Assembly: GCA_916613615.1 (NCBI GenBank) | Contig: OU744737.1 | Span: forward strand, 3,616,001 to 3,680,000 | Direction of reading: 5' to 3' | From: Steromphala cineraria | Taxonomy: Eukaryota > Mollusca > Gastropoda > Trochida > Trochidae | DNA: 64,000 nt | In this document: one piece after another, positions 3,534-40,719 of the stretch | How positions within the stretch are numbered: the first letter of the stretch is position 1 | Layout: each line of letters starts with the position of its first letter | Position numbers and translations under genes: made by a program | Notes under the pieces: generated by a model | Told to the model about the DNA's origin: nothing | Database searches by the model: none | What the model saw: only the letters and a program-made list of their open reading frames with translations

Positions 3534-4078
3534 TTTTATTTGCTCATCTGGCCTGTAAGGTCTGATGGGCTTATGGCATGGAATGGTGGAATTTCGACTT
3601 CTTCTCCAGAACCATAAGGCCTAGATAGCTGACACTTTGTGCACAGTCTCCTTGGCTAGTGAAGATAATAAATTGGAGCTTTTGAGGCCCTGTGACCCAT
3701 AATAAGGGACACAGGGGCCACGCCCTTAAAACCTATTTTCATCTTCTTCTCCAGAAGAATAAAGCCTAGAAAGCTGAAACCTTGTGTACATACTCCTTGA
3801 ATAGTGAGGAATATAATTCATAGCTTATATGGCCCTGTGACCCCTAAAAAGGGTCACAGGGGCCACACTCTTTAAACCTATTTTCTTCTTTTTCTCCAGA
3901 AGCTTGAGGCATAGACAGCTGAAACCTTATCTACAGACTCCTAAGTTAGATAAGTAGGATTCTAAATTGAACATTTGGTGACCAAGTGGACCCTACTAAA
4001 GGGACAACCACATTTGCCACACCCTAAAGCAATATTGACATAAAGCCTAATGAGCTACAGAGCCAATGGCTCTATTTT
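3534..4078 (+). mobile_element. Pearl/HINE-like element, short diverged copy
   Basis: The 5' end resembles the family start (TGCTCATCTGGCCTG, then GATGGGCTTATGGCATGG). The core has only about three diverged ~146-bp monomers, still with the GTGACCC..GGGTCACAGGGG hairpin. The 3' end is CCTAATGAGCTA followed by the invariant palindrome AGAGCCAATGGCTCT (4059-4073). Divergence from the elements at 1-1024 and 4922-6279 suggests an older subfamily insertion. Confidence 0.7.
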
Positions 4079-4921: not shown

Positions 4922-6279
4922 TTTTTAGCTCATCAGGACTGAAAGTCCAGATGGGCTTATGGCATGGCCCGTCGTCCGGCGTCCGTCCGTCCGTCGTCCG
5001 TCCGTCGTCCGTCATCCGTCAGTAAACTTTTGACACTTTCGACTTCTCCTCATGAACCATACACATTAGAGAGCTGACATTTTGTGTACAAGTACCTTAG
5101 CATATGGAGATTCTAATTTGTAACTTTGGTGACCCTGTGACCCCAAATAGGGTCACAGGGGTCACAACTTTAAAAACCTATTTTCATCTTCTTCTCCAGT
5201 TCCAGAAGGACTAGAGAGTTAAAAATGATATGTGCAGACTCCTTGGCCAATGGGGATTCTAATTTGTAACTTTGGTGACCCTGTGACCCCAAATAGGGTC
5301 ACAGGGGTCACAATCTTAAATACCTATTTTCATCTTCTTCTTCAGTTCCAAAAGGAGTAGAGAGTTAAAAATTATATGTGCAGACTCCTTGGACAATTGA
5401 GATTCTAATTTGTAACTATGGTGACCCTGTGACCCCAAATAGGGTCACAGGGGTCACAACCTTAAAAACCTATTTTCATCTTCTTCTCCAGTACTAAAAG
5501 GACTATAAAGTTGAAAATGATATGTGCAGACTCCTTGGCCAATCGGGATTCTTAATTGTAGATTTCGTGACCCCATGACACCAAATAGGGTCACAGGGGT
5601 CACAACCTTAAAAACCAATTCTCATCTTCTTCTCCAGTTCCAAAAATTCTAGAGAGTTAATATTGATATGTGCAGACTCCTTGGACAATGGGGATTCTAA
5701 TTTGTAACTTTGTTGACCCTGTGACCCCAAATAGGGTCACAGGGGTCACAACCTTAAAAAACTATTTTCATCTTCTTCTCAAGTTCCAAAAGGTCTAGAG
5801 AGCTGAAATTATATGTGCAGACTCCTTGGCCAATGGGGATTCTAAATTATAGATTTCGTGACCCCATGACCCCAAATAGGGTCACAGGGGTCACAACCTT
5901 TAAAACTTATTTTCATCATCATCTTTAGCTCCTAAAGGTCTATTGAGCTGAAAGACTGCATGTAGACTCCTTGGCCAATTGGGATTCTAAACTGTAGGTT
6001 TTGTGACCCCATGACCCCAAATAGGGTCACAGGGGTCACAATCTTACAAACCTATTTTTCTCCATTAGATGAATTTATTTCTCCTTGGATATTTTAGTGT
6101 GGACTTCTTTCATTGTCTGATATTGGCGATCTAGAAAGTGTTGAATAATAATACATTTGTTTTGTTATTTTTTTATAGGTTTTCTTGCAATAGGTAACAT
6201 CAGTTTCATTTTTAGCTCATCTTGCCTGTATAAAGCAAACTTGATATGATGCCTGATGAGCTACAGAGCCAATGGCTCT
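4922..6279 (+). mobile_element. Pearl/HINE-like element, full-length
   Basis: This is the complete family member in the window. The 5' subterminal motif TAGCTCATCAGG (4926-4937) is followed by a GGACT..AGTCC mini-hairpin and a GTCC/GTCG-rich stretch (about 4967-5025). The core is about six ~146-bp monomers (about 5110-6050). A unique tail leads to the inverted motif CCTGATGAGCTA (6252-6263) and the terminal palindrome AGAGCCAATGGCTCT (6265-6279). It encodes nothing. Monomer variants occur in the same order as in the element at 1-1024, so both descend from one multimeric master copy. The Helentron-associated assignment rests on architecture. Confidence 0.78.
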
Positions 6280-7520: not shown

Positions 7521-8058
7521 TACCGTATTTCCTCTAATATAACCCGGGCCTCCATTACAACCCGGGCCTCGAATATAACCCGGGGGGTAAGGGGGTGATG
7601 ACATAAATACAACCCGGGTCTCGAATAGAACCCAGATCTAACATAAAAAATGAATACTCCCTGTTGCAAATTAAGTAACATTCTGTAATATACATTGATA
7701 TTTGATATCCATGTATACAGCTTCTTTCTTATGCATATAGATCAGTAATACGCTCGTTTTGAAAAGAAACACTTGTATATTATGCCGTAAGTATATACTT
7801 CATGGAAACCGTATATTGCAGGGATTGATACGGGTTTTGATAAAAGAATGAATATCAACAGAAATTCCACGAGATATGTAGAACTAGATCAATAATTTTC
7901 TATGAAAACGCCATTCCTAGAAGATTTTGAAACGTCAATTCAGACCTGAAAAAATACAACCCGGCCTCCATTATAACCCGGGCCTCGAATAGAACCCGGG
8001 GGGTAAGGGGGTACTGAACGAAATAGAACCCCGGGGTTGTATTCGAGGAAATACGGTA
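7521..8058. mobile_element. Long-TIR MITE with CCCGGG-rich ends
   Basis: The left end TACCGTATTTCCTCTAATAT runs into CCCGGGCCTC repeats. The right end is the inverse, closing with GAGGAAATACGGTA. Subterminal arms at both ends carry repeated AACCCGGGCCTCGAATA-type units and GGGGGGTAAGGGGGT stretches, so the arms pair over well beyond 30 bp. The middle is unique and AT-rich with no ORF. This is the structure of a foldback-type or MITE element. Confidence 0.65.
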
Positions 8059-9775
8059 CATCGATTTTGGGAGGGAAATTTTTTTATATACATACCAATT
8101 GGCTTGAAGTGACCTACCCCCCCCCCCCCCCCAATATTGTTTAACCAGTCCCTTATAGTAGACTTATGGATAATATTTAGATTACCAGCAGTTATTCCAG
8201 TTTCTTGTTTCTGTCCACAGTTTCAAAGCCACACATAAAAAGGAGTTCTAATCAAATTTACAAAAAAAGAAATATGAAATTTTAAGATATAAATCCTTTC
8301 TGTTCGTAAAGGCCTACAAAGATGATTTTGCAGAAATACAGTTTATATTATTTTATATCTCTTCAATCCTGTGATGTTCAATGATCAAAGATAAGAAATG
8401 ATTTTCACAAATCATGGCACCACTGTTCTCTGTATGAAAAGACCAGAGACCTTTTTTTAACTAGCTGACATATGTGCTAAATCATTGTACTAGACTCGCA
8501 CAATAAAGAAATAAATCTCTTAACGGGAAAACAGGAGTAGGAATAATATAAAATTACACAACCTAATTTGGCTGATTTAGCAGATTTGATATTGGAAACA
8601 ATTAACAACACGTTTAATAGTCACCTCGGTACCCAATCCCTCACGCACGGCGAATAATTAAACCTCATTCCAGCTTCCCTGCATTGCCTACGATAACCTG
8701 ATTGATTTTAAAATAACATAACCAACTGTACTAATTTTACAACACATTGAAAACGTTTTCGATGTTAGACCATGCCATTATAAAATAAGCCAAATTCCTT
8801 ATTACGAGAATGAATGTAATTATGAGTTTGAAATAACTGCGTCTGGACAAAAGTTTTGTGTGACATGAATCGATTTGTTTTTCAAAAATGTTTTAATGAG
8901 GCAAATATCAGTGATGAAGATGTTATAATTAAGACGTCTGTGTTATGGTTTCTAGGGCACAAGTCACATATAAGCCACGCTTTGCACGAGCACATGTCAA
9001 ATTCACTGGGTGTCAACATTGTAGGGAAGGAACAGATTTTAAGAAAGAAATTTGAAAAAAGAGATTTGATTTAGAAATACTCCCAGTCTGTCTGTTTGAA
9101 ATTCAACTGTATTTCATCATTGCTCGTTTATAAGTAAAACAACTTATCTTATCAAATATTGAGAGTGTATAAAGTACTGAGAGTCAAAACGAATATCTGA
9201 GAGAATTCATATGTAATTAAGTTCATTGTCTGTTCGTCCAGACGTTTGTCCGTCCATAATTGTAACGTCTTTCCGTAGCAAAGGCACGAAACTCATCGGT
9301 GATGAGTAATGCTATCCTACTTCTGCAATAAAAACTGACTATTCAACTTCAAAACTTAAAAGACTTGTATAATATTTCAAAACAAAATCAAAGTTTGAAG
9401 TTAACTAAGCTTTGTTTTTGTTTATTTAACCACAATTGTGTCAACCTTTTGAGTTTTATATCTATATATTGGATAGGTGTAAATTGGATTCAATTCGCAG
9501 TTAATGATTTTAAGTTTATCAGATTTTTCTTGGGTTGTTTTATCTCTTGAGTTATAAGTTTTGCTTTATGTCTTTTTAAAAATTCCCCTTCAACATTGAA
9601 TCAACATAATTTCGCAAAAACATGAAATTAAAAATAATTTGTATTATTTGTTATGACATTGATAATACTATCTTTCATTTTTCCTCGTGCTTTATCTTTT
9701 GAAGATTGTCTTATATTTGTTTGCAATTATAAAGAAGTTAGGGGTTTTCATTTACAATTTTTTCTGCAATTTAAT
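8059..9775. other. AT-rich spacer with one poly-C run
   Basis: Contains a 16-nt C homopolymer at 8117-8132. A GTCC-rich scrap near 9230-9255 recalls pearl element 5' ends. A 72-codon plus-strand frame (8856-9074) has no recognisable domain. Confidence 0.45.
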
Positions 9776-10036
9776 AAGGATTTACATTGAGAGTTTTCTT
9801 TCAGTAATATATTAAGGGCTTGCATTGAGATTTTTCTGTCAGTAATGTTTAAGGGCTTGCATTGAGAGTTTTCTTTTAGCAATGTTTTAAAGGTTTGCAT
9901 TGAGAGTTTACTTTCAACAATTCTAAAGGGTTTGCATTGAAAGTTTTCTTTCAACCATGTTTAAGGGTTTGCATTGAGAGTTTTCTTTCAACAATGTTTA
10001 AGGGTTTGCATTGAAAGTTTTCTTTCAGCGTTGTTG
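9776..10036. repeat. Minisatellite, ~37-bp unit, about 7 copies
   Basis: Seven imperfect units of 36-38 bp, each containing AAGGGTTTGCATTGAGAG or a close variant followed by TTTTCTTTCA. On the minus strand each unit reads TTGAAAGAAAACTTTC or TTGAAAGAAAACTCTC. The array begins about 26 bp beyond the purine-rich element of the SET gene 3' end and lies downstream of that gene. The open frame across it is a repeat shadow. Confidence 0.9.
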
Positions 10037-10061: not shown

Positions 10062-10076
10062 AGTTATCTTTTTTGC
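10062..10076 (-). promoter_or_regulatory. Histone downstream element-like purine tract
   Basis: The minus strand reads GCAAAAAAGATAACT, about 9 nt after the histone-type stem-loop. Its core CAAAAAAGA differs at one base from the sea-urchin-type histone downstream element CAAGAAAGA, which pairs with U7 snRNA. Position and strand fit histone pre-mRNA processing; function is inferred. Confidence 0.6.
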
Positions 10077-10084
10077 GAGTTGTT

Positions 10085-10100
10085 GGCCCTGAAAAGGGCC
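10085..10100 (-). terminator. Replication-dependent histone-type 3' stem-loop
   Basis: The minus strand reads GGCCCTTTTCAGGGCC: a perfect 6-bp stem (GGCCCT/AGGGCC) with a TTTC loop. This matches the metazoan histone mRNA consensus GGCYCT-TTTC-AGRGCC exactly. It starts 39 nt after the TGA of the SET ORF, on the same strand, and is followed by AACAAC and a purine-rich element. No AATAAA is seen between the stop codon and this site. In histone mRNAs this structure binds SLBP and replaces polyadenylation. Confidence 0.88.
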
Positions 10101-10139
10101 GGGGTTGTCGAAGCAAGCTAGCCTGTGGTCTGCAGCTTC

Positions 10140-11015
10140 TCAAGAGTCCTTAAGGAAGGCGGGTAGTCCTGGCCTCTGGTCATTGTAGTTCCATGTTAGT
10201 TCTCCTCCCGAGCTCACCGCCGTCTTTGTATACAAGAAGAACCTTCGCCTCCCGTCCCGCAATTCAGAAACTAACCTACAATTAGAATTTCGAGCCGAGT
10301 GGTTCATCGTTGCTCCCAAATTTGTGTCAGGATCAATTCGATCCCCCAAGTGATTACGCTGGCCATCTAAACGTAAATGTGATGAACGTCGGCAACCCTC
10401 AAACTGAATACACCTATACGATAACCCCTGCCTGTCGTACTCGTCCTGCCGAATTTCTGCCTCCTCTTCACTAACAATTTGGCCTAAATACTCACAGACT
10501 TCTGCCCCAGCAGGGTAGTCGTGTGTTGCAAACAACCCCTTCCCAATTTCTGTACTGACAGGCGCTATCAAAGGACTAGAATTTAGATCCCCCCTTCGTT
10601 CCCGGTCCAAAACAGAGCTACGTCTATTATAATCTCTAAAATCGTACCCAAGAGGACTAGCCAAAGCGTCCCCATCATTAACCCCCGCTGTCCTAGCACT
10701 ACGGTTAATCCTAACCACTTCATACCCCTTTACCCTGGTCGTATGTTTGACGAAGTTCTTGTTCACAGCAACGACCGCAAACTGGAGGGAGAACCTGGCA
10801 AAGCTGTTGGCTACGTCCACCAGTCTTCCGTCTCTGGTCTTCGCCGCTACGTAGGCCTTGTACTCCGCGTGGAGGTCCCTGGTGGCGATGACGTTGCCGG
10901 CACAGGGGGAGTACAGCTCGGCGAAGGCAGAGAGGAAGGGGCAGGCCATGCTGGTCTTGGGGTCCACTGTCAGACCACGGCGTTGGGATCGGCTTGTTCG
11001 ACTTTCTCTTGGCAT
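10140..11015 (-). CDS. SET-domain protein (putative histone methyltransferase), histone-type gene
   Basis: Intronless 291-codon ORF. The C-terminal half (about 152-291) is a SET domain: GKG (158-160) and EYLG (175-178) for cofactor binding, NHS (238-240), and ELTWNY (272-277) with the catalytic-type Tyr. The last residues, NDQRPGLPAFLKDS, align in position with the tail of the H4K20 methyltransferase KMT5A/SET8, so a KMT5A-like activity is possible but unproven. No pre-SET or post-SET cysteine cluster is seen. Residues about 27-103 form a separate domain (RDLHAEYKAYV; NSFARFSLQF; VKGYEVVRI) weakly resembling the winged-helix C-terminal to D5/P4-type primase-helicases. Residues 1-20 are basic, Ser/Arg-rich. 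The start has A at -3 and lies about 45 nt after the predicted cap site. The gene is clearly GC-richer than its flanks. It is flanked by a TATA box and a histone-type stem-loop, implying S-phase expression (inference). The SET call is firm; the N-terminal call is tentative. Confidence 0.85.
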   Translation of the reverse strand: MPRESRTSRSQRRGLTVDPKTSMACPFLSAFAELYSPCAGNVIATRDLHAEYKAYVAAKTRDGRLVDVANSFARFSLQFAVVAVNKNFVKHTTRVKGYEVVRINRSARTAGVNDGDALASPLGYDFRDYNRRSSVLDRERRGDLNSSPLIAPVSTEIGKGLFATHDYPAGAEVCEYLGQIVSEEEAEIRQDEYDRQGLSYRCIQFEGCRRSSHLRLDGQRNHLGDRIDPDTNLGATMNHSARNSNCRLVSELRDGRRRFFLYTKTAVSSGGELTWNYNDQRPGLPAFLKDS

Positions 11016-11056
11016 CGTGACAAATTGCTCAGATCAATGGTGCGAAGATTGAGAGC

Positions 11057-11091
11057 GGAATGGCAAAACTGTGGCGGGAGAAGACTTTATA
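11057..11091 (-). promoter_or_regulatory. TATA box and initiator of the SET gene
   Basis: The minus strand has GGGTATAAAGTC, with TATAAAG at plus 11085-11091. About 30 nt downstream is CCATTCC (plus 11057-11063), similar to the YCATTCR cap-site motif of many histone genes. That places transcription start near 11061 and gives a 5' UTR of about 45 nt before the ATG at 11013-11015. Spacing is ideal for a TATA-directed pol II promoter. Confidence 0.7.
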
Positions 11092-19989: not shown

Positions 19990-22019
19990 TCACTGTTCAT
20001 GTTCCTGTTGAGTGTGTGGTCCTATAGCATGGTAGGCACTGTGGTGGGCCAGGGAGCAGAAGTGCTGGTTATACGACACACAGCCATAGACGGTATCCCG
20101 CCTCACACCTCTCTTTGCACGACACCACTTGCAAGTCGACTTCTTTCGTTTAAGGCGCACCAATCTGTGCTCATGCAGTGTGGAACAGGTTAGTGGCAAC
20201 ACACCGTTACGGGATCTCCCCCTATGTTGGAATGCTGAAACCAATTGATGTACAAGATTCATCCTGAATTCAAGTTGGCAGTAGCGACTCTTTGCCCACT
20301 CTTGTTCAGCTCTTGCAGACTCCTTTGCTGTGATAAAAGCATTTATCATACAGATATTGATTATAAAATGGAAGATATATCTCCACCACTTCCTTGAAGC
20401 TCTTCCAACTGGATAGGCAGCTCTAAGCTGATCTCACTTGTCGACACTCCTGAAGTGCTGCTGGTACAAAGCCACTGCGCCGGGTCTGGAGACACGCGTC
20501 CACGATCCGTCCGATTGCCGTCCCAGTGCAGGGACGTCATCAGTAGGGTCCGATGTTGTTGCAAGAAGGTTGATGGGCCTCTTATCCTGCCATACATAGG
20601 CTGTCAGCTGTCTGCACTGGTATGCTTGGGATTCGCCCTGCTGCATCTTAGAAGGCTTCTGAAACAAACAGTTTATAACTTTAACAATCAGTACACACTG
20701 TAAATGTCAGCATTATTTAACTAGGCTAACAGACAAAATAGTCATTAACTCACAAGAAACACACAGAAATAGTAACTGGGCTAGTAATTTGCACTTTCTG
20801 TCTGAGGAATGAATTAAGTTTAATATTGGCTCCAAACACTTTATACTCCATCCATGTAGGTTTGGAATATTACCTCAAAAACAATGGATTAGTCACAGCA
20901 GGTGTTGAAATTTTCCCCTTTACCAAGTTAGATATTATCAATGGACACACACAAATGTATATTAATACCTTGTAGTTGTCATGCAATATTGCTTTCCATT
21001 CTTCCTGGTTAAAACTTGAATTAGTAGCCCTACAGACTACCACTAAGTTAATTAATGTTTATTTTCTACCTTGATAATGATGACTTATCAGCAATAATAA
21101 TATGATTCATTGATTATTCCCTTACAAGTTGAAGAATAACAATACAATACAAATGAAAAATATTTCACAACCTCTGATTCACAACAGATACATTTTGTAA
21201 CTTGACTATCCTAAAGTATTACCACTTTGTTTTAAATGATAAATGACTTGACTAACCTGAATTCATGTGAAAACCCTTCCTGTTTGCTTTTACAGTACCA
21301 CAGGTGTAAATGCCATCTTCCTTCAGTGAGATCAGTAGAGGGCTGGATGTAAAATAGCTGTCGAAGAACACCTGGTGGTGTTTCCCGGCCAGCTCGGTTG
21401 TTAGACCTTGGGTCACCTTGTATCCGTTGGACCGCTATCCCCTTCAAGCAGTTTTCCCATGTACACCTGAAATGACATTTTCATCATGATGATTTGGTAA
21501 AAGGTCTGATATAGTTTTTTAAAAGTTCTGATAATAATTTTGCACTTTATAAATAATTTTAATTAAATATCAAATAAATCAGCTTGATAACTTGTAATAT
21601 TCATCCATTTGTATACAGAGTAAAGAATTGATAGTCAAATAGGTAGAGTAAATGCTCATTTTCTAACCTAAAACTTGTGACAAAAGCCAGACTGGCTATC
21701 ACAGAGCATCCAAACTTTCAAACCTCTCCTGATTGGTTTTGAGGGATTGTATTGTACTGCAGTGTGTCTCCCTTTAAATGCAACCATGCCCTAATCTAGG
21801 GACAGGTGCTGCTTTGGGGCATAATTCTCCCTTATGTTGGACAGAGCGTCGGTTAGAAGTGGTCTCACTTTACCTAGTGGATCTGTGCCATTGGTTGATT
21901 CATTAATGTGCAGGTACTGCAGTAATTTAGCATTCAGAAGAAAAATCATTATTTCCACTCATATCACTTTCATCTGTCTGCGATGGGTGCCACGTAAAGT
22001 CACTTGACACCTGTGACAT
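19990..22019 (-). pseudogene. piggyBac-family transposase relic, spliced and disabled
   Basis: Three recognisable exons on the minus strand. Exon 1 (22019-21668) starts MSQVSSDFTWHPSQTDESD, an acidic N-terminus. It stops soon after and runs, apparently by internal deletion, into the transposase core: KVRPLL, then LSLD-stop-GMVAFKGR with TAG at 21791-21793 in place of the Glu after the first catalytic Asp. A frameshift follows, then KPIRRGLKVWMLCDSQSGF. Exon 2 (21466-21257) is bounded by AG and GT. It opens VYMGK, shifts frame once, and continues HHQVFFDSYFTSSPLL (second Asp region) and GIYTCGTVKANRKG. Exon 3 (20658-19990) has VWQDKRPINLL, then RSVDK-stop-DQLRAAY (TGA at 20434-20436) at the third catalytic region, RKWWRYIF, and a C-terminal cysteine region (CKWC..) in which some zinc-ligand positions are lost. 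No TIRs were identified. Family is certain from these motifs; the copy cannot be active. Confidence 0.85.
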
Positions 22020-25189: not shown

Positions 25190-25508
25190 CAACAACGGGC
25201 GCGCCTCGCTGCAAGAGTGGGTTAGTCGGTCACTGCTGAATAAACTGAGAGTTTGAAGGGTTGATCCCCTGCCCCACACTGACACACAAGTTGACAGACT
25301 TGTGGTGTCAACCTGGGAAAGTGGCTTTATTCAAAATGTGCCTCTGTTCACCCAGCAGGAAATGGGTACCTGGTAAAGAGTTGTGTTGGTGGTGACCTTC
25401 TAGCGACATATACGTCAGCTTGGGTAAGACCAGGGTACTGGAGCATAGAGCGCTCTGAGTCTGCAATGCGGAGATTTAGCGCTATATAAAAGCTATCAAT
25501 TATTATTA
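25190..25508 (+). mobile_element. tRNA-derived SINE with conserved central block
   Basis: The head has an A-box-like GTGGGTTAGTCGGTC (about 25217-25231) and a B-box-like GGGTTGATCCCC (25258-25269). The body carries TTCACCCAGCAGGAAATGGGTACCTGG-type sequence (about 25348-25374), a block shared by many invertebrate SINEs. The 3' end has GCGCTATATAAAAGCT followed by a TTATTATTA tail. This combination is diagnostic of a pol III SINE. The minus-strand open frame at 25043-25285 is incidental. Confidence 0.8.
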
Positions 25509-28400: not shown

Positions 28401-29160
28401 TTACTACCTGATAACACTACGCTTTGTACCTTTGTACCACACCATATGCTCGTCAAGATTCTCTCAATATTGTTTCTAATTATGCTTCACAATGGCGTTT
28501 AACTAACAATGCCTCCAAGAGCATTTTGATTATCTTTTGTAAAGGGAGACAACCCTGTCTTGATATCAATACCGAATCTATAAAATATAGCGGTATCCTT
28601 ATCTCTTCAGACATGTCAAGCAGAGAGAGAACATCCACTGGTTGTCAAAAGGCTAGACAAACTGTGAATTCATTAAGAACACTTGGCTTGAAAAGAAAAG
28701 ATCTACATCCACTTACATTAGGCAGTAAATGGAAGCTAATCATACTACCAAATAGTTTTCACGGGTGTGAAATTTTGCCTGAATTACATGGTAAAGATAT
28801 TGATTCAATTGAATCAACTAAAAGGGTTTTTTTCACGTTGTGTTCAAAGGTTCAACTAAAGAATTTCTACAGTTTCTGCAATAGCAATTTGGGTTTCTGG
28901 GCAATGGCAGATTGATTGATAATTACAGATTAATGTTCTTGGGCGGCTGTGTAAATAATCAATATCCCTCATCAACAAAGTTATTATTTCGTTCATTTCT
29001 GTCAGTAAGTCACGTAATAATTCAGGAAGCATATGTGCTTGTCTTTTAAGCACAACGAGAAAATATGATTTACATAGATTTGTTAATGATAATGTACATT
29101 ATGGTTACTTTCCTCAAAAACTAGCATGGCGCAATATTGTTCTAAACTGAATTCCAAAAG
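28401..29160 (+). pseudogene. LINE (non-LTR) reverse transcriptase, 3' fragment
   Basis: The fragment starts within RT domain 5: the catalytic YADD motif is represented by a degraded LPDNTTL (about 28404-28421), so a metal-binding Asp is lost. A frameshift follows. The longest open stretch (28424-28915, 163 codons counted from an internal Met) then carries typical RT palm/thumb sequence: NYASQWRLTNNASKS, KYSGILISSDMSSRERT, KARQTVNSLRTLGLKRK, IDSIESTKR and SNLGFWAMA. Homology continues out of frame to about 29160 (DNYRLMFLG, LLFRS, FVNDNVHYGYFPQKLAW). The endonuclease and the earlier RT domains are absent, as in 5'-truncated LINE insertions. The clade was not determined. Confidence 0.8.
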
Positions 29161-30172: not shown

Positions 30173-33100
30173 CTCCTTTTGTGACTTCTTAACCCCAAAT
30201 GTGGTCACAGGGATCAAAAACCGTCGAAACGTTTTTTCATCTTTCTCTTCAGGTTCAAAAGGTCTAGAGAGCTGAAAAGTTGTCTGTTCTCCTTTGCTAA
30301 ATAGAACTCTAAAGTGTAGGTTTGGTGACCCCTTGACCCCAAATGAGGTCTCAGGGATCAAAAACCGTAAAAACGTTTTTTCATATTTCTCTCCAGGTCC
30401 AAAAGGTCTAGAGAGCTGAAAAGATGTTTTAAAACTCCTTGGCCAATGAGGTATTTATATTGTAGGTTTGGTGACCCTTTGACTCCAAATGAGGTCACAG
30501 GGGTCAAAAACCTTAAAATCGTATTGTCATCTTTCTCTCCAGGTCAAAAAGGTCTAGAGAGCTGAAAAGTTGTCTGTAGACTCCTTGGCCAATGATGAAT
30601 CTCAATTGTAGGTTTGGTGACCCCTTGGCCCCAAATGAGGTCACAGGGATCAAAAACTGTAAAAACGTTTTTTAATCTTTCACTCCAGGTCCAAAAGGTC
30701 TTGATAGCTAAAAAGATGTTTTAAAACTCCTTGGCCAATGAGGTATTTATATTGTAGGTTTGATGACCTCTTGACCACAAATGAGGTCACAAGGGTCAAA
30801 ACCTTAAAAATCGTATTTTCATCTTCCTCTCCAGGTCCAATACTTCAAGAGGGCTGAAAAGTTGTCTGTATACTCCTTGACCAATGATGAGTCTAAATTG
30901 TAGGTTTGGTGACCCCTTGACCCCAAATGAGGTCACAGGGATCAAAACCTTAAAAATCGCATTTTCATCTTTCTCTCCAGGTCCAAAAGGTCTATAGAGC
31001 TGAAAAGTTGTCTGTAGACTCCTTGGCCAAAGATGAATCAAAATTGTAGGTTTGGTGACCCCTTGACCCCAAATGAGGTCACAGGGATCAAAACCTTAAA
31101 AATCGCATTTTCATCTTTCTCTCCAGGTCCAAAAGGTCTATAGAGCTGAAAAGTTGTCTGTATACTCCTTGGCCAATGATGAGTCTAAATTGTAGGTTTG
31201 GTGACCCCTTGACCCCAAATGAGGTCACAGGGATCAAAAACTGTAAAAACGTTTTTTCATCTTTCTCTCCAGGTCCAAAAGGTCTAGAGAGCTGAAAAGA
31301 TGTTTTAAAACTCCTTGGCCAATGAGGTATTTATATTGTAGGTTTGGTGACCCTTTGACTCCAAATGAGGTCACAGGGGTCAAAAACCTTAAAATCGTAT
31401 TGTCATCTTTCTCTCCAGGTCAAAAAGGTCTAGAGAGCTGAAAAGTTGTCTGTAGACTCCTTGGCCAATGATGAATCTCAATTGTAGGTTTGGTGACCCC
31501 TTGACCCCAAATGAGGTCACAGGGATAAAAACTGTAAAAACGTTTTTTCATCTTTCACTCCAGGTTCAAAAGGTCTATAGAGCTGAAAAGATGTTTTAAA
31601 ACTTCTTGGCCAATGAGGTATTTATATTGTAGGTTTTGTGACCCTTTGACTCCAAATGAGGTCACAGGGGTCCAAAACCTTAAAATCGTATTTTCATCTT
31701 TCGATCCAGGCCAAAAAGGTCTAGAGAGCTGAAAAGTTGTCTGTAGACTTCTTGGCCAATGGTGAATATAAATTGTAGGTTTGGTGACCCCTTGACCCCA
31801 AATTAGGTCACAGGGATCAAAACCGTAAAAACGTTTTTTCATCTTTCTCTCCAGGTCCAAAAGGTCTAGAGAGCTGAAAAGATGTTTTAAAACTTCTTGG
31901 CCAATGAGGTATTTATATTGTAGGTTTGGTGACCCCTTGACCCCAAATGAGGTCACAGGGGTCAAAACCTTAGAACTCGTATTTTTATCTTTCTCTCCAG
32001 GTCCAAAAGGTCTAGAGAGCTGAAAAGATGTTTTAAAACTACTTGGCCAATGAGGTATTTAAATTATAGGTTTGGTGACCCCTTGACCCTTAATGAGGTC
32101 ACAGGGGTCAAAACCATAAAAATCGTATTTTCATCTTTCTCTCCAGGTCTAAAAGGTCTAGAGGGCTGAAAAGATGTCTGTAGACTCCTTGGCCAATGAT
32201 GAATCTAAACTGTAGGTTTGGTGACCTCTTGACCCCAAATGAGGTCACAGGGATCAAAAACTGTAAAAACGTTTTTTCATCTTTCTCTCCAGGTCCAAAA
32301 GGTCTAGAGAGCTGAAAAGATGTTTTAAAACTCCTTGGCCAATGAGGTATTTATATTGTAGGTTTGGTGACCCTTTGACTCCAAATGAGGTCACAGGGGT
32401 CAAAAACCTTAAAATCGTATTGTCATCTTTCTCTCCAGGTCAAAAAGGTCTAGAGAGCTGAAAAGTTGTCTGTAGACTCCTTGGCCAATGATGAATCTCA
32501 ATTGTAGGTTTGGTGACCCCTTGGCCCCAAATGAGGTCACAGGGATCAAAAACTGTAAAAACGTTTTTTAATCTTTCACTCCAGGTCCAAAAGGTCTTGA
32601 TAGCTGAAAAGATGTTTTAAAACTCCTTGGCCAATGAGGTATTTATATTGTAGGTTTGATGACCTCTTGACCACAAATGAGGTCACAAGGGTCAAAACCT
32701 TAAAAATCGTATTTTCATCTTCCTCTCCAGGTCCAATACTTCAAGAGGGCTGAAAAGTTGTCTGTATACTCCTTGACCAATGATGAGTCTAAATTGTAGG
32801 TTTGGTGACCCCTTGACCCCAAATGAGGTCACAGGGATCAAAACCTTAAAAATCGCATTTTCATCTTTCTCTCCAGGTCCAAAAGGTCTATAGAGCTGAA
32901 AAGTTGTCTGTAGACTCCTTGGCCAAAGATGAATCAAAATTGTAGGTTTGGTGACCCCTTGACCCCAAATGAGGTCACAGGGATCAAAACCTTAAAAATC
33001 GCATTTTCATCTTTCTCTCCAGGTCCAAAAGGTCTATAGAGCTGAAAAGTTGTCTGTATACTCCTTGGCCAATGATGAGTCTAAATTGTAGGTTTGGTGA

Positions 33101-36100
33101 CCCCTTGACCCCAAATGAGGTCACAGGGATCAAAAACTGTAAAAACGTTTTTTCATCTTTCTCTCCAGGTCCAAAAGGTCTAGAGAGCTGAAAAGATGTT
33201 TTAAAACTCCTTGGCCAATGAGGTATTTATATTGTAGGTTTGGTGACCCTTTGACTCCAAATGAGGTCACAGGGGTCAAAAACCTTAAAATCGTATTGTC
33301 ATCTTTCTCTCCAGGTCAAAAAGGTCTAGAGAGCTGAAAAGTTGTCTGTAGACTCCTTGGCCAATGATGAATCTCGATTGTAGGTTTGGTGACCCCTTGA
33401 CCCCAAATGAGGTCACAGGGATAAAAACTGTAAAAACGTTTTTTCATCTTTCACTCCAGGTTCAAAAGGTCTATAGAGCTGAAAAGATGTTTTAAAACTT
33501 CTTGGCCAATGAGGTATTTATATTGTAGGTTTTGTGACCCTTTGACTCCAAATGAGGTCACAGGGGTCCAAAACCTTAAAATCGTATTTTCATCTTTCGA
33601 TCCAGGCCCAAAAGGTCTAGAGAGCTGAAAAGTTGTCTGTAGACTTCTTGGCCAATGGTGAATATAAATTGTAGGTTTGGTGACCCCTTGACCCCAAATT
33701 AGGTCACAGGGATCAAAACCGTAAAAACGTTTTTTCATCTTTCTCTCCAGGTCCAAAAGGTCTAGAGAGCTGAAAAGATGTTTTAAAACTCCTTGGCCAA
33801 TGAGGTATTTATATTGTAGGTTTGGTGACCCCTTGACCCCAAATGAGGTCACAGGGGTCAAAACCTTAGAACTCGTATTTTTATCTTTCTCTCCAGGTCC
33901 AAAAGGTCTAGAGAGCTGAAAAGATGTTTTAAAACTACTTGGCCAATGAGGTATTTAAATTATAGGTTTGGTGACCCCTTGACCCTTAATGAGGTCACAG
34001 GGGTCAAAACCATAAAAATCGTATTTTCATCTTTCTCTCCAGGTCTAAAAGGTCTAGAGGGCTGAAAAGATGTCTGTAGACTCCTTGGCCAATGATGAAT
34101 CTCAATTGTAGGTTTGGTGACCCCTTGGCCCCAAATGAGGTCACAGGGATCAAAAACTGTAAAAACGTTTTTTCATCTTTCACTCCAGGTCCAAAAGGTC
34201 TAGAGAGCTGAAAAGATGTTTTAAAACTCCTTGGCCAATGAGGTATTTATATTGTAGGTTTGGTGACCCCTTGACCCCAAATGAGGTCACAGGGGTCAAA
34301 ACCTTAGAACTCGTATTTTTATCTTTCTCTACAGGTCCAAGAGGTCTAGAGGGCTGAAAATATGTCTATAGACTCCTTGGCCAATGATGAATTTAAATTG
34401 TAGGTTTGGTGACCTCTTGACCCCAAATGAGGTCACAGGGATCAAAAACTGTAAAAACGTTTTTTCATCTTTCTCTCCAGGTCCAAAAGGTCTAGAGAGC
34501 TGAAAAGATGTATTAAAATTCCTTGTCCAATGAGGTATTTAAATTATAGGTTTTGTGACCCCTTGACCCTAAATGAGGTCACAGGGGTCAAAACCATAAA
34601 AATCGTATTTTCATCTTTCTCTCCAGGTCTAAAAGGTCTAGAGGGCTGAAAAGATGTTTGTAGACTCCTTGGCCAATGATGAATCTAAATTGTAGGTTTG
34701 GTGACCTCTTGACCCCAAATGAGGTCACAGGGATCAAAAACTGTAAAAACGTTTTTTCATCTTTCTCTCCAGGTCCAAAAGGTCTAGAGAGCTGAAAAGA
34801 TGTTTTAAAACTCCTTGGCCAATGAGGTATTTATATTGTAGGTTTGGTGACCCTTTGGCTCCAAATGAGGTCACAGGGGTCAAAAACCTTAAAATCGTAT
34901 TGTCATCTTTCTCTCCAGGTCAAAAAGGTCTAGAGAGCTGAAAAGTTGTCTGTAGACTCCTTGGCCAATGATGAATCTCAATTGTAGGTTTGGTGACCCC
35001 TTGGCCCCAAATGAGGTCACAGGGATCAAAAACTGTAAAAACGTTTTCTCATCTTTCACTCCAGGTCCAAAAGGTCTTGATAGCTGAAAAGATGTTTTAA
35101 AACTCCTTGGCCAATGAGGTATTTTTATTGTAGGTTTGGTGACCATTTGACTCCAAATGAGGTCACAGGGATCAAAACCTTAAAAATCGTATTTTCATCT
35201 TTCTCTCCAGGTCCAAAAGGTCTAGAGAGCTGAAACGTTGTCTGTAGATTCCTTGGCCAATGATGAATCAAAAGTGTAGGTTTGGTGACCCCTTGACCCC
35301 AAATGAGGTCACAGGGATAAAAACTGTAAAAACGTTTTTTCATCTTTCACTCCAGGTCCAAAAGGTCTATAGAGCTGAAAAGATGTTTTAAAACTTCTTG
35401 GCCAATGAGGTATTTATATTGTAGGTTTGGTGACCCTTTGACTCCAAATGAGGTCACAGGGGTCAAAAACCTTAAAATCGTATTTTCATCTTTCGATCCA
35501 GGCCAAAAAGGTCTAGAGGGCTGAAAAGTTGTCTGTAGACTTCTTGGCCAATGGTGAATATAAATTGTAGGTTTGGTGACCCCTTGACCCCAAATTAGGT
35601 CACAGGGATCAAAACCGTAAAAACGTTTTTTCATCTTTCACTCCAGGTCCAAAAGGTCTAGAGAGCTGAAAAGATGTTTTAAAACTCCTTGGCCAATGAG
35701 GTATTTATATTGTAGGTTTGGTGACCCCTTGACCCCAAATGAGGTCACAGGGGTCAAAACCTTAGAACTCGTATTTTTATCTTTCTCTACAGGTCCAAGA
35801 GGTCTAGAGGGCTGAGAAGATGTCTGTAGACTCCTTGGCCAATGATGAATTTAAATTGTAGGTTTGGTGACCTCTTGACCCCAAATGAGGTCACAGGGAT
35901 CAAAAACTGTAAAAACGTTTTTTCATCTTTCTCTCCAGGTCCAAAAGGTCTAGAGAGCTGAAAAGATGTTTTAAAACTCCTTGGCCAATGAGGTATTTAT
36001 ACTGTAGGTTTGGTGACCCTTTGACTCCAAATGAGGTCACAGGGATCAAAAACCTTAAAATCGTATTGTCATCTTTCTCTCCAGGTCTAAAAGGTCTAGA

Positions 36101-38360
36101 GGGCTGAAAAGATGTCTGTAGACTCCTTGGCCAATGATGAATCTAAATTGTAGGTTTGGTGACCTCTTGACCCCAAATGAGGTCACAGGGATCAAAAACT
36201 GTAAAAACGTTTTTTCATCTTTCTCTCCAGGTCCAAAAGGTCTAGAGAGCTGAAAAGATGTTTTAAAACTCCTTGGCCAATGAGGTATTTATACTGTAGG
36301 TTTGGTGACCCTTTGACTCCAAATGAGGTCACAGGGATCAAAAACCTTAAAATCGTATTGTCATCTTTCTCTCCAGGTCAAAAAGGTCTAGAGAGCTGAA
36401 AAGTTGTCTGTAGACTCCTTGGCCAATGATGAATCTCAATTGTAGGTTTGGTGACCCCTTGGCCCCAAATGAGGTCACAGGGATCAAAAACTGTAAAAAC
36501 GTTTTTTCATCTTTCACTCCAGGTCCAAAAGGTCTAGAGAGCTGAAAAGATGTTTTAAAACTCCTTGGCCAATGAGGTATTTATATTGTAGGTTTGGTGA
36601 CCCCTTGACCCCAAATGAGGTCACAGGGGTCAAAACCTTAGAACTCGTATTTTTATCTTTCTCTACAGGTCCAAGAGGTCTAGAGGGCTGAAAAGATGTC
36701 TGTAGACTCCTTGGCCAATGATGAATTTAAATTGTAGGTTTGGTGACCTCTTGACCCCAAATGAGGTCACAGGGATCAAAAACTGTAAAAACGTTTTTTC
36801 ATCTTTCTCTCCAGGTCCAAAAGGTCTAGAGAGCTGAAAAGATGTTTTAAAACTCCTTGGCCAATGAGGTATTTATATTGTAGGTTTGGTGACCCTTTGA
36901 CTCCAAATGAGATCACAGGGGTCAAAAACCTTAAAATCGTATTGTCATCTTTCTCTCCAGGTCAAAAAGGTCTAGAGAGCTGAAAAGTTGTCTGTAGACT
37001 CCTTGGCCAATGATGAATCTCAATTGTAGGTTTGGTGACCCCTTGGCCCCAAATGAGGTCACAGAGATCAAAAACTGTAAAAACGTTTTCTCATCTTTCA
37101 CTCCAGGTCCAAAAGGTCTTGATAGCTGAAAAGATGTTTTAAAACTCCTTGGCCAATGAGGTATTTATATTGTAGGTTTGATGACCTCTTGACCACAAAT
37201 GAGGTCACAAGGGTCAAAACCTTAAAAATCGTATTTTCATCTTCCTCTCCAGGTCCAATACTTCAAGAGGGTTGAAAAGTTGTCTGTATACTCCTTGACC
37301 AATGATGAGTCTAAATTGTAGGTTTGGTGACCCCTTGACCCCAAATGAGGTCACAGGGATCAAAACCTTAAAAATCGCATTTTCATCTGTCTCTCCAGGT
37401 CCAAAAGGTCTATAGAGCTGAAAAGTTGTCTGTAGACTCCTTGGCCAAAGATGAATCAAAATTGTAGGTTTGGTGACCCCTTGACCCCAAATGAGGTCAC
37501 AAGGATCAAAACCTTAAAAATCGCATTTTCATCTTTCTCTCCAGGTCCAAAAGGTCTATAGAGCTGAAAAGTTGTCTGTAGACTCCTTGGCCAAAGATGA
37601 ATCAGAATTGTAGGTTTGGTGACCCCTTGACCCCAAATGAGGTCACAGGGATCAAAACCTTAAAAATCGCATTTTCATCTTTCTCTCCAGGTCCAAAAGG
37701 TCTATAGAGCTGAAAAGTTGTCTGTAGACTCCTTGGCCAAAGATGAATCAAAATTGTAGGTTGGGGACCTTTTGACCACAAATGAAGTCACAAGGGTCAA
37801 AACCTTAAACATCGTATTTTCATCTTCCTCTCCAGGTCCAAAACTTCAAGAGGGCTGAAAAGTTGTCTGTAGACTCATTGACCAATGATGAATCTAAATT
37901 GTAGATTTGGTAACCCCTTGACCCCAAATGAGGTCACAAGGATCAAAAACTGTAAAAACGTTTGTTAATCTTTCTCTCCAGGTCCAAAATGACTAGAGAG
38001 CTGAACAGATATTTTAAAACTCCTTGGCCAATGAGGTATTTATATTGTAGGTTTGGTGACCATTTGACTCCAATTGAGGTCACAGGGGTCAAAACCTTAA
38101 AAATCGTATTTTCATCTTTCACTCCAGGTGAGAAAGGCCTAGAGAGTTGAAATGTTGTCTGTAGATTCCTTGGCCAATGATGAATCTAAATTGTAGGTTT
38201 AGTGACCCCTTGACCCCAAATGAGGTCACAACAGTCAAAAACCTTAAGAACTTTTTTTTCATCTTTCACTCCAGGTCCAAAAGGTCTAGAGAGCTGAAAT
38301 GTTGTCTGTCTGTTAATTTAAGGTTTGGTGACCGTAAAAACGTTTTTTCATCTTTCACTC
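30173..38360 (+). repeat. Giant ~146-bp tandem array (pearl/HINE core family)
   Basis: About 55 head-to-tail monomers of about 146 bp; TAGGTTTGG recurs at 30317, 30463, 30609, 30755 and 30901. Each monomer has TGACCCC..AAATGAGGTCACAGGG, a pyrimidine-rich TTTTCATCTTTCTCTCCAG, and AAAAGGTCTAGAGAGCTGAAAAG. A higher-order period of 1,896 bp (13 monomers) links 30796 to 32692, 31555 to 33451, and 33451 to 35347. The last monomers (about 37750-38360) are more diverged and partly deleted, as expected at an array edge. The recurrent minus-strand frames (for example PVTSFGVKGSPNLQ) are repeat translations, not genes. Confidence 0.92.
30310..34100. repeat. 13-monomer higher-order duplication, two tandem copies
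   Basis: Copy 1 (about 30310-32205) and copy 2 (about 32206-34100) are near identical at an offset of 1,896 bp. Both share the same rare variants, such as the CTTGGCCCC monomer (30623 and 32520) and the CAATACTTCAAGAGGG monomer (30837 and 32733). Boundaries are approximate. Confidence 0.8.
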
Positions 38361-40719
38361 ATAATGTAATACTAAGGATTGACTATTTTAAGTGGGCGTG
38401 TCCCAGACATCTTTAATTTTAATTTTATTTTTAGCAAAAGACAGATATCACATGTTAAGTCACTCCTTTTTTACAGTTTAGATGTAAAATATATTGATTC
38501 GCTACAATATTCATGTCTGGAAACTCTTGAATCTTAAAAAACTTCCTCCTAATACTGCAATGCCAAGGATTGACTATTTTAAGTGGGCGTGTCTCAGACG
38601 TCTTTAATTTTCGTTTGATTCTTAGCAAAAGACAGATATCACATATTCAGTCACTCTTTTCTAACATTTTAGATGTAAAATATGCTAGTTGGATACAATA
38701 TCCATGTCTCGAAACTCTTAAAACGGAAAAACTTTCCTCCTAATACTGCAATGCCAAGGATTGACTATTTTAAGTGGGCGTGTCTCAGATGTCTTTAATT
38801 TTCGTTTGATTCTTAGCAAAAGACAGATATCACATGTTCAGTCACTCATTTCTAATAATTTAGATGTAAAATATGATGGTTGGATACAATATCCATGACT
38901 AGAAACTCTTCAAACGGAAAACTTTACTCCTAATACTGCAATGTCAAGGATTGACTTTGTTAAGTGGGCGTGTCTCAGACGTCTTTAATTTTGAGTTGAT
39001 TCTTAGCAAAAGACAGATATCACATGTTCAGTCACTAATTTCTTACAGTTTAGATGTAAATTATATTGGTTAGTTACAACATCAATGTAAAGCAACTCTT
39101 GAATGTGAAAAAAACATCCTCCTAATACTGCAATACCAAGGATTGAGTATTTCATAAGGGCATGTCTCAGATGTCTTTAATTTAAAGTTGATTCTTAGCA
39201 AAAGACAGATATCACATGTTCAGTTACTCATTTCATACAGTTTAAATGTAAAATGTTTTAGTTAGTTACTACATATATGTCTCGAAACTCTTAAATCTGA
39301 AAAAAAAATTCATCCTGATACTGCAATGCCTAGGATTGACTATTTCAAGTGGGCGTGTCTCAGACATCTTTAATTTTAAGTTAATTCTTAGCAAAAGACA
39401 GATATCAAATGTTCAGTCACTCATTTCTTACAGTTTAGATGACAAATATGCTGGTTGGATACCATACCTATGTCTAGAAACTCTTGAACCTGAAAAAACA
39501 TCCTCCTAATACTGCAATACCAAGGATTGAGTATTTCATGAGGGCATGTTTCAGACGTCTTTAATTTTGAGTTGATTCTTAGCAAAAGACAGAAATCACA
39601 TGTTCAGTTACTCATTTCTGACACTTTAAGTGCAAAATATTCTGGTTGGATACAATACCTATGTCTAGAAACTCTTAAATCTAAAAAAATCCCACCTAAT
39701 ACTGCAATGCCAAGGATTGACTGTTTTAAGTGGGCGTGTCTCAGACGTCTTTAACTTTCGTTTAAGTCTAAGCAAAAGACAGATATCACATGTTCTGTCA
39801 CTCATTTCTAACACTTTAGATGTAAAATATGCTGGTTGGATACAATATCCATGTCTAGAAACTCTTAAAACGGATAAACTTTCCTCCTAATACTGCAATG
39901 CCAATTTGATTCTTAGCAAAAGCCAGATATCACATGTTAAGTCACTTATTTCTTACAGTTAGGTGTAAAATATATTGGTTAGTTACAACATCCATGTCTA
40001 TAAACTCCTGAATATGAAAAAACATCCTCCTAATACTGCAATACCAAGGATTGAGTATTTCATGAGGGCATGTCTGAGACGTCTTTAATTTTGAGTTGAT
40101 TCTTAGCAAAAGACAGAAATCACATGTTCAGTCACTCATTTCTGACACCTTAAGTGTACAATATTCTGATTGGATACAATAGCCATGTCTCGAAACTCTT
40201 AAATCTGAAAAGAATTCCTCCTAATACTGCAATGCCAAGGATTGACTATTTTAAGTGGGCGTGTCTCAGACGTCTTTAACTTTCGTTTAAGTCTAAGCAA
40301 AAGACAGATATCACATGTTCTGTCACTCATTTCTAACACTTTAGATGTAAAATATGCTAGTTGGATACAATATCCATGTCTCGAAACTCTTAAAACGGAA
40401 AAACTTTCCTCCTAATACTGCAATGTCAAGGATTGACTATTTTTAGTGGGCGTGTCTCAGACGTCTTTAATTTTGAGTTGATTCTTTGCAAAAGACAGAT
40501 ATCACATGTTCTGTCACTCATTTCTAACACTTTAGATGTAAAATATGCTGGTTGGATACAATGTCCATGTCTCGAAACACTTAAAACGGAAAAACTTTCC
40601 TCCTAATACTGCAATGACAAGGATTGACTATTTTAAGTGGGCGTGTCTCAGACGTCTTTAATTTTCGTTTGATTCTTAGCCCAAGACAGATATCACATGT
40701 TCAGTCACTCATTTCTTAC

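Follow-up and report, generated by a model that had tools for sequence, protein, structure and literature searches.

A molluscan SET-domain gene with the sequence layout of a replication-dependent histone transcription unit

The SET gene and its surroundings

The window analysed here, a stretch of 64 kb from contig OU744737.1 of Steromphala cineraria, holds on its minus strand an intronless open reading frame (ORF) of 291 amino acids, which the ORF listing places at 10140–11015 with the stop codon included, running from an ATG at 11015 to a TGA at 10142–10140. The original prediction had described this ORF as an intronless gene for a SET-domain methyltransferase, and the description holds: the frame is uninterrupted over 291 codons, and a complete SET domain lies at the C-terminal end of the protein (residues 158–278; 10182–10544, minus strand), where a Pfam search of the ORF protein matched the full PF00856 profile (positions 1–105 of 105) at 50.9 bits and E 2.2e-13, against a cut-off of 22.4 bits. 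SET is the sole Pfam domain detected in the protein, which has a computed pI of 9.1 over its 291 residues. Four motifs are present, GKGLFA (residues 158–163), EYLGQIV (175–181), NHSARNSNC (238–246) and ELTWNY (272–277), which in SET enzymes hold the cofactor site and the catalytic tyrosine; the protein has the full SET domain with NHS and tyrosine motifs by which SET-domain lysine methyltransferases are recognised. The product is most likely an enzyme of this class or else a divergent member of the SET fold, and it may act by methylating histones.

When residues 140–291 were compared with the PDB, 92 distinct sequences were matched at E ≤0.01, every one of them weakly, with SETD2 as the best match (E 5e-7) followed by EZH2, NSD2, MLL1, EHMT1, KMT5A and others; the scores of SETD2 (32.8 bits) and KMT5A (24.6 bits) are both too weak for a subfamily assignment. 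There is no cysteine beyond residue 246, and the post-SET zinc site is therefore absent. A single NCBIfam match, to AnkI/LegAS4, reached 13.4 bits against a cut-off of 550 and was set aside as far too low. The 64-kb window showed no further SET copy, and a SET-like tblastn match at 8454–8362 (E 0.36) was rejected because its 31 aligned residues are no better than chance and the AT-rich DNA around it holds many stops.

Relatives were also sought in large sequence collections. Against 5.8 billion proteins, the whole protein drew 2102 candidates at E 0.01, residues 15–135 drew 247 at E 10 and residues 136–288 drew 125 at E 10, with no relative among them; by protein, three stretches of IMG/VR matched a pattern and 48 stretches were retrieved from prokaryote contigs, none of which is a relative. 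These collections are prokaryotic, viral or of unchecked animal content, so that absence from them says little. The case rests on a single locus, in an arrangement poorly explained by chance.

The N-terminal part of the ORF (codons 1–128; 10632–11015, minus strand) contains no recognised domain: residues 1–128 gave no Pfam or PHROGs match and residues 1–122 no PDB match, in each case at E up to 10, and two single-sequence AlphaFold models, with pLDDT values of 29.9 and 40.5, were of too low quality to support a fold search. Derivation of this part from a core histone or from H1 was rejected on the basis of tblastn. A likeness of the N-terminus to the winged helix of D5-type helicases was considered and found no support in Pfam, PHROGs or the PDB. 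Codon usage changes along the ORF. Third positions carry G or C in 51/60 codons over codons 21–80 versus 67/160 over codons 101–260 (Fisher p 4e-9, for ranges picked after the profile was seen), and over codons 21–60 (10836–10955) the proportion is 93%, sharply unlike the later part of the ORF. This shift suggests that the ORF was assembled from two sources, as a chimera, or that one of its ends underwent gene conversion.

The gene forms a GC-rich island: between 10000 and 11499 the GC content is 0.41–0.55 per 500-base step, against about 0.27–0.36 in the surrounding DNA. A tblastn search with the four core histones found no core histone gene in the 64 kb (best E 0.89), the H1 globular domain had no tblastn match in the window up to E 10, and the ORF itself encodes neither a histone fold nor an H1 globular domain, PF00856 being its only match. 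No tRNA was found in the window. Satellite arrays occupy much of it, with 146-bp units (about 56 copies) at 30177–38309 and 191-bp units at 38361–63997, nearly to the window end; further units of 145–146 bp lie at 1–788, 3598–3942 and 5104–6058. At 7521–8058, an inverted repeat with 28-nt arms (89% complementary, 482 nt apart) encloses 18-bp CCCGGG-containing repeats, an arrangement suggestive of a short non-autonomous mobile element. The ORF at 19990–20349 (minus strand) may resemble the C-terminus of a piggyBac transposase, and the ORF at 28424–28915 (plus strand) a reverse transcriptase fragment; Pfam gave two below-cut-off matches for the former and none for the latter. The SET gene is spanned by five weak, AT-rich inverted-repeat pairs (I3, I4, I7, I8 and I9; 18–28 nt, 75–94%), which look like chance pairings, and no transposon with clear terminal repeats was seen around it beyond these weak pairs.

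Start and end signals

Ahead of the ORF, on its strand, a pattern scan located the TATA box TATAAA at 11086–11091, and the cap-like site CCATTCC lies at 11057–11063. The distance between them, predicted at about 30 nt, is 28 nt when measured start to start (11091 to 11063). The 5′ UTR (11016–11061, minus strand) had been called very short, and it would indeed be 46 nt long with the A at 11061 as the capped base. YCATTC is a histone-type cap consensus, and transcription would probably start at about 11061. One other site in the window (25483–25485, plus strand, with two overlapping matches) has TATAWA with YCATTC 18–26 nt behind it, and because similar spacing thus recurs by chance, the TATA/cap pair alone is weak evidence. 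Judged from the DNA, the locus has the intronless body, short UTRs and TATA promoter of a histone-type unit, and its message would carry no introns.

Behind the stop codon, again on the minus strand, there follow 39 nt, then the hairpin GGCCCTTTTCAGGGCC (10100–10085), then AACAACTCG, and then the purine-rich element CAAAAAAGA (10075–10067), with 9 nt between the stem and CAAAAAAGA. The hairpin, which has a 6-bp stem and a 4-nt loop and was recognised by Rfam RF00032, by pattern and by its minimum-energy fold, is the perfect stem-loop that the original prediction had placed 39 nt after the stop, and the purine-rich element, located by pattern scan, answers to the sequence element that had been described behind it. 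This element, for which CAAGAAAGA is the consensus, is a putative site of U7 pairing. Cleavage of the message would presumably fall in the AACAA behind the stem (10080–10084, minus strand), to judge from C. elegans histone messages, which end 3–6 nt after the hairpin according to a passage of PMC1924863.

Of 4227 Rfam families, Histone3 (RF00032) alone matched anywhere in the 64-kb window at E ≤1. The match, at 10105–10060 on the minus strand, scored 30.1 bits, corresponding to E 1.4e-4 in 64 kb and 8.9e-7 in 401 bases; the gathering score of the family is 34, so that a default Rfam scan reports nothing here. In the alignment, a perfect stem carries a loop that is one base off consensus, and the departures from the model lie mostly in the flanks, with ACCCC before the stem (ccAAA in the model) and AACAA after it. 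The 16-nt pattern GGCYCTTTTCAGRGCC, with up to two mismatches allowed, occurs once in the window, with zero mismatches, where 0.03 occurrences are expected (3/100 shuffles contained a match). Under a first-order Markov model, the probability of an exact hairpin less than 100 nt from the stop is 3e-8 with window-trained and 2e-7 with locally trained frequencies; it falls to about 1e-14 when the other three motifs are included, and all these figures concern motifs named only after being seen. What counts for the stem-loop is its sequence and its place; hairpin shape by itself is common, and 24 perfect hairpins with a 6-bp stem and a 4-nt loop occur in the window. The 80 nt after the stop have a predicted fold with the 6-bp stem and 4-nt loop, which beats shuffles only moderately (z -1.8; 12/200 shuffles as good) and to that degree counts against a histone-type reading.

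The prediction that no AATAAA lies near the stop was borne out by a same-strand scan from 11500 to 8001, in which the first poly(A) hexamers after the stop were ATTAAA at 9775 (365 nt) and AATAAA at 9426 (714 nt). A 37-bp tandem repeat (6.8 copies, 10029–9775) begins about 37 nt beyond the purine element; in this array, four sites can pair at 6–7 of 7 positions around an A-rich 4-nt loop (TTGAAAG-AAAA-CTTTCAA type) and a GAAAGAAAA run is present at four sites; the array resembles what could be further downstream-element material.

The hairpin together with the purine element has 0 occurrences in IMG/VR. With a similar 3′ flank, the hairpin occurs in seven stretches among the 257 billion bases of a prokaryote collection; a somewhat shortened pattern found it in two IMG/VR stretches, which are identical around the hairpin. 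None of these nine stretches holds a core histone gene (tblastn, E 1e-3), and none reaches the Rfam Histone3 cut-off, below which the hairpin of the window likewise falls; we take the nine copies to be chance matches.

Explanations for the arrangement

The explanation that we favour, with a probability of roughly 0.58, is that the SET methyltransferase gene is expressed as a replication-dependent histone-type message. Several features of the locus argue for it: the SET domain is complete with its NHS and tyrosine motifs, and the Histone3 match is unique in the window; the hairpin and then the purine element follow in the right order, on the strand of the ORF and 39 nt past the stop; the TATA box and cap-like site stand 28 nt apart, no poly(A) hexamer is near, and the chance probability of an exact hairpin within 100 nt is 3e-8 to 2e-7; and neither a histone gene nor a clear remnant of one, as a possible donor of the signal, was found in the 64 kb. 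Other features weigh against it, namely that there is one locus and no relative, that the Rfam score of 30.1 bits is below 34 and CCCC stands ahead of the stem, that the 39-nt gap between stop and hairpin exceeds the 6–17 nt given for Hydractinia in a figure legend of PMC5011920, that a polyadenylated form could arise by way of the ATTAAA at 9775, and that TATA/cap pairs of this spacing arise by chance too. The original prediction had also claimed a message that is free of poly(A) and limited to S phase, made for a histone-methylating enzyme; the layout of a SET gene within a histone-type unit is supported by the sequence, while these further properties we infer from it.

In the processing of histone 3′ ends, SLBP sits on the hairpin and U7 snRNP on the purine element, and cleavage occurs between the two, as described in sections of PMC2781718 and PMC5011920. 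If the SET gene is handled in the same manner, the TATA box and CCATTC start would drive a short, intron-free transcript, SLBP would bind the hairpin at 10100–10085, U7 snRNP would pair with CAAAAAAGA at 10075–10067, and the pre-mRNA would be cut a few nucleotides behind the stem, with an end predicted at about 10082–10079. The resulting mRNA, some 980 nt long, would lack a poly(A) tail, and both its synthesis and its persistence would fall mainly in S phase; the enzyme would therefore appear alongside new histones. One may go further and propose that a non-histone chromatin-modifying enzyme was recruited into the SLBP/U7 system and is supplied by the histones' S-phase, poly(A)-free route, a tentative proposal to which we give somewhat less than an even chance.

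Among the alternatives, the one that survives best is a young chimera, in which a SET segment, as a retrocopy or duplicate, was fused to a gene already equipped with the promoter and 3′ end of a histone-type unit. In that case the signals would be inherited and the unit transcribed or silent, with no functional coupling selected. The sharp change of codon bias within the ORF (Fisher p 4e-9, ranges chosen post hoc) would fit such a fusion, and residues 1–128, which have no known domain, together with a satellite-rich window that holds neither histone neighbours nor a paralogue, would also suit it. We nevertheless consider this scenario unlikely, given an ORF that is open across 291 codons, a perfect hairpin, and an N-terminal part that by tblastn is neither core histone nor H1; a chimeric origin would, moreover, be compatible with present use of the signals.

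The gene might instead have two 3′ ends, in the manner of H2A.X, so that dividing cells would form the stem-loop end and other cells a polyadenylated one (at the ATTAAA at 9775 or the AATAAA at 9426), in which case the enzyme would not be strictly tied to S phase. Dual processing has been reported for H2A.X in parts of PMC7807067, and for h2afx in parts of PMC3188798, and hexamers that could serve it lie 365 nt (ATTAAA) and 714 nt (AATAAA) past the stop. AT-rich DNA (GC 0.27–0.31 at 9000–9999) is, however, expected to contain such hexamers by chance, and human H2A genes too have poly(A) signals 102 to >400 nt past the hairpin, according to a passage of PMC1924863; we regard this scenario as improbable.

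Less credible still is that a viral or mobile-element gene of the animal took over a histone-type unit for S-phase expression. One may point to the intronless ORF, to the lack of any relative found, to the missing cysteines after residue 246 and hence the missing post-SET zinc site, to a GC-rich island (up to 0.55) within AT-rich DNA, and to a possible D5-type likeness of the N-terminus. The N-terminus has no Pfam or PHROGs match, however, and IMG/VR, which may hold few animal viruses, contains neither a relative nor the hairpin with purine element; among the 12 ORFs listed for the window there is no recognisable viral one, with Pfam giving at most weak matches for the eight submitted to it, and the inverted-repeat pairs that span the gene are weak, AT-rich and chance-like. 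Coincidence, that is, an ordinary gene with a chance hairpin and purines after its stop, can be dismissed as very improbable, since chance copies of the hairpin with similar 3′ flank do exist (seven prokaryote, two IMG/VR, none with a core histone gene) but at a rate too low to yield a hairpin less than 100 nt from a given stop plus the purine element and the TATA/cap pair.

Comparison with known systems

If the SET gene is indeed expressed as a histone-type message, it would break the rule that only replication-dependent histone genes yield stem-loop-ended messages, and it would offer a simple answer to how cells keep histone-marking enzymes in step with the supply of histones. Messages of this kind are lost from poly(A)-selected libraries and could easily have been overlooked until now. 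In passages of PMC6303110 and PMC1924863, replication-dependent histone genes are given as the only metazoan protein-coding genes known to produce stem-loop messages. That no gene such as the one found here had been described, as the original prediction held, agrees with the statements of the authors of PMC1924863 (2007), PMC2781718 (2009) and PMC6303110 (2018), who in the passages concerned knew of no non-histone gene with a histone-type 3′ end. Our queries of the open-licence PMC literature, which were partly narrow and make a weak test, likewise found no non-histone gene with a histone stem-loop. Human messages beyond those of histones can be poly(A)-minus, for example znf460 and sesn3, and no tie to a stem-loop is mentioned in the portion of PMC3188798 that reports them.

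The histone genes of another mollusc bear on the details of the hairpin region. In the clam Lucina pectinata, the palindrome is said to be in all histone messages, whereas purine elements near it are described only in H1_A, H2A_X, H3 and H4, and in H4 ahead of it (both in excerpts of PMC6210712). Loose flanks and purine elements would thus not be strange in a mollusc.

Among SET genes, a possible parallel comes from animals with many KMT5A-like genes. In Hydractinia, 13 such genes are switched on early, besides the genes for histones, with another nine following by 7 h post fertilisation; the sea urchin has 61, and in the expanded genes of both animals the SET domain is mostly N-terminal, as described in sections of PMC10368294. 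Capitella, according to a passage of PMC12153100, has three kmt5a paralogues. The parallel with Hydractinia and sea urchin is loose, because our protein carries its SET domain at the C-terminal end and has better matches than KMT5A; these animals illustrate, at most, a background of multiplying SET genes that are expressed alongside histones, and the sections of PMC10368294 on their KMT5A-like genes do not mention histone-type 3′ ends. The protein encoded here is more like the product of the one Hydractinia gene of canonical KMT5A layout (315 aa, in the same sections of PMC10368294), in that SET is C-terminal and the length is about 300 aa. It is unlike KMT5A/SETD8 (PR-Set7) in that SETD2, EZH2, NSD2 and MLL1 outscore KMT5A in the PDB, all of them weakly. 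By sequence it is closest to SETD2/NSD/EZH2, which provide the best PDB matches (SETD2, E 5e-7), and it differs from these enzymes in that the similarity is weak, SET is the sole Pfam domain, and no post-SET zinc cysteines follow residue 246.

The closest comparison for the gene as a unit is with the metazoan replication-dependent histone genes (H1, H2A, H2B, H3 and H4). Unlike them, it encodes a SET protein in a window that holds no core histone gene, and the flanks of its hairpin are unusual, with an Rfam score about 4 bits under the cut-off. Like them, it is intronless, with a TATA box and short UTRs, and has a perfect GGCCCTTTTCAGGGCC hairpin soon after the stop, a purine element just behind the hairpin and no near poly(A) signal. 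Here the start and end signals familiar otherwise from histone genes belong to a SET gene and not to a histone gene.
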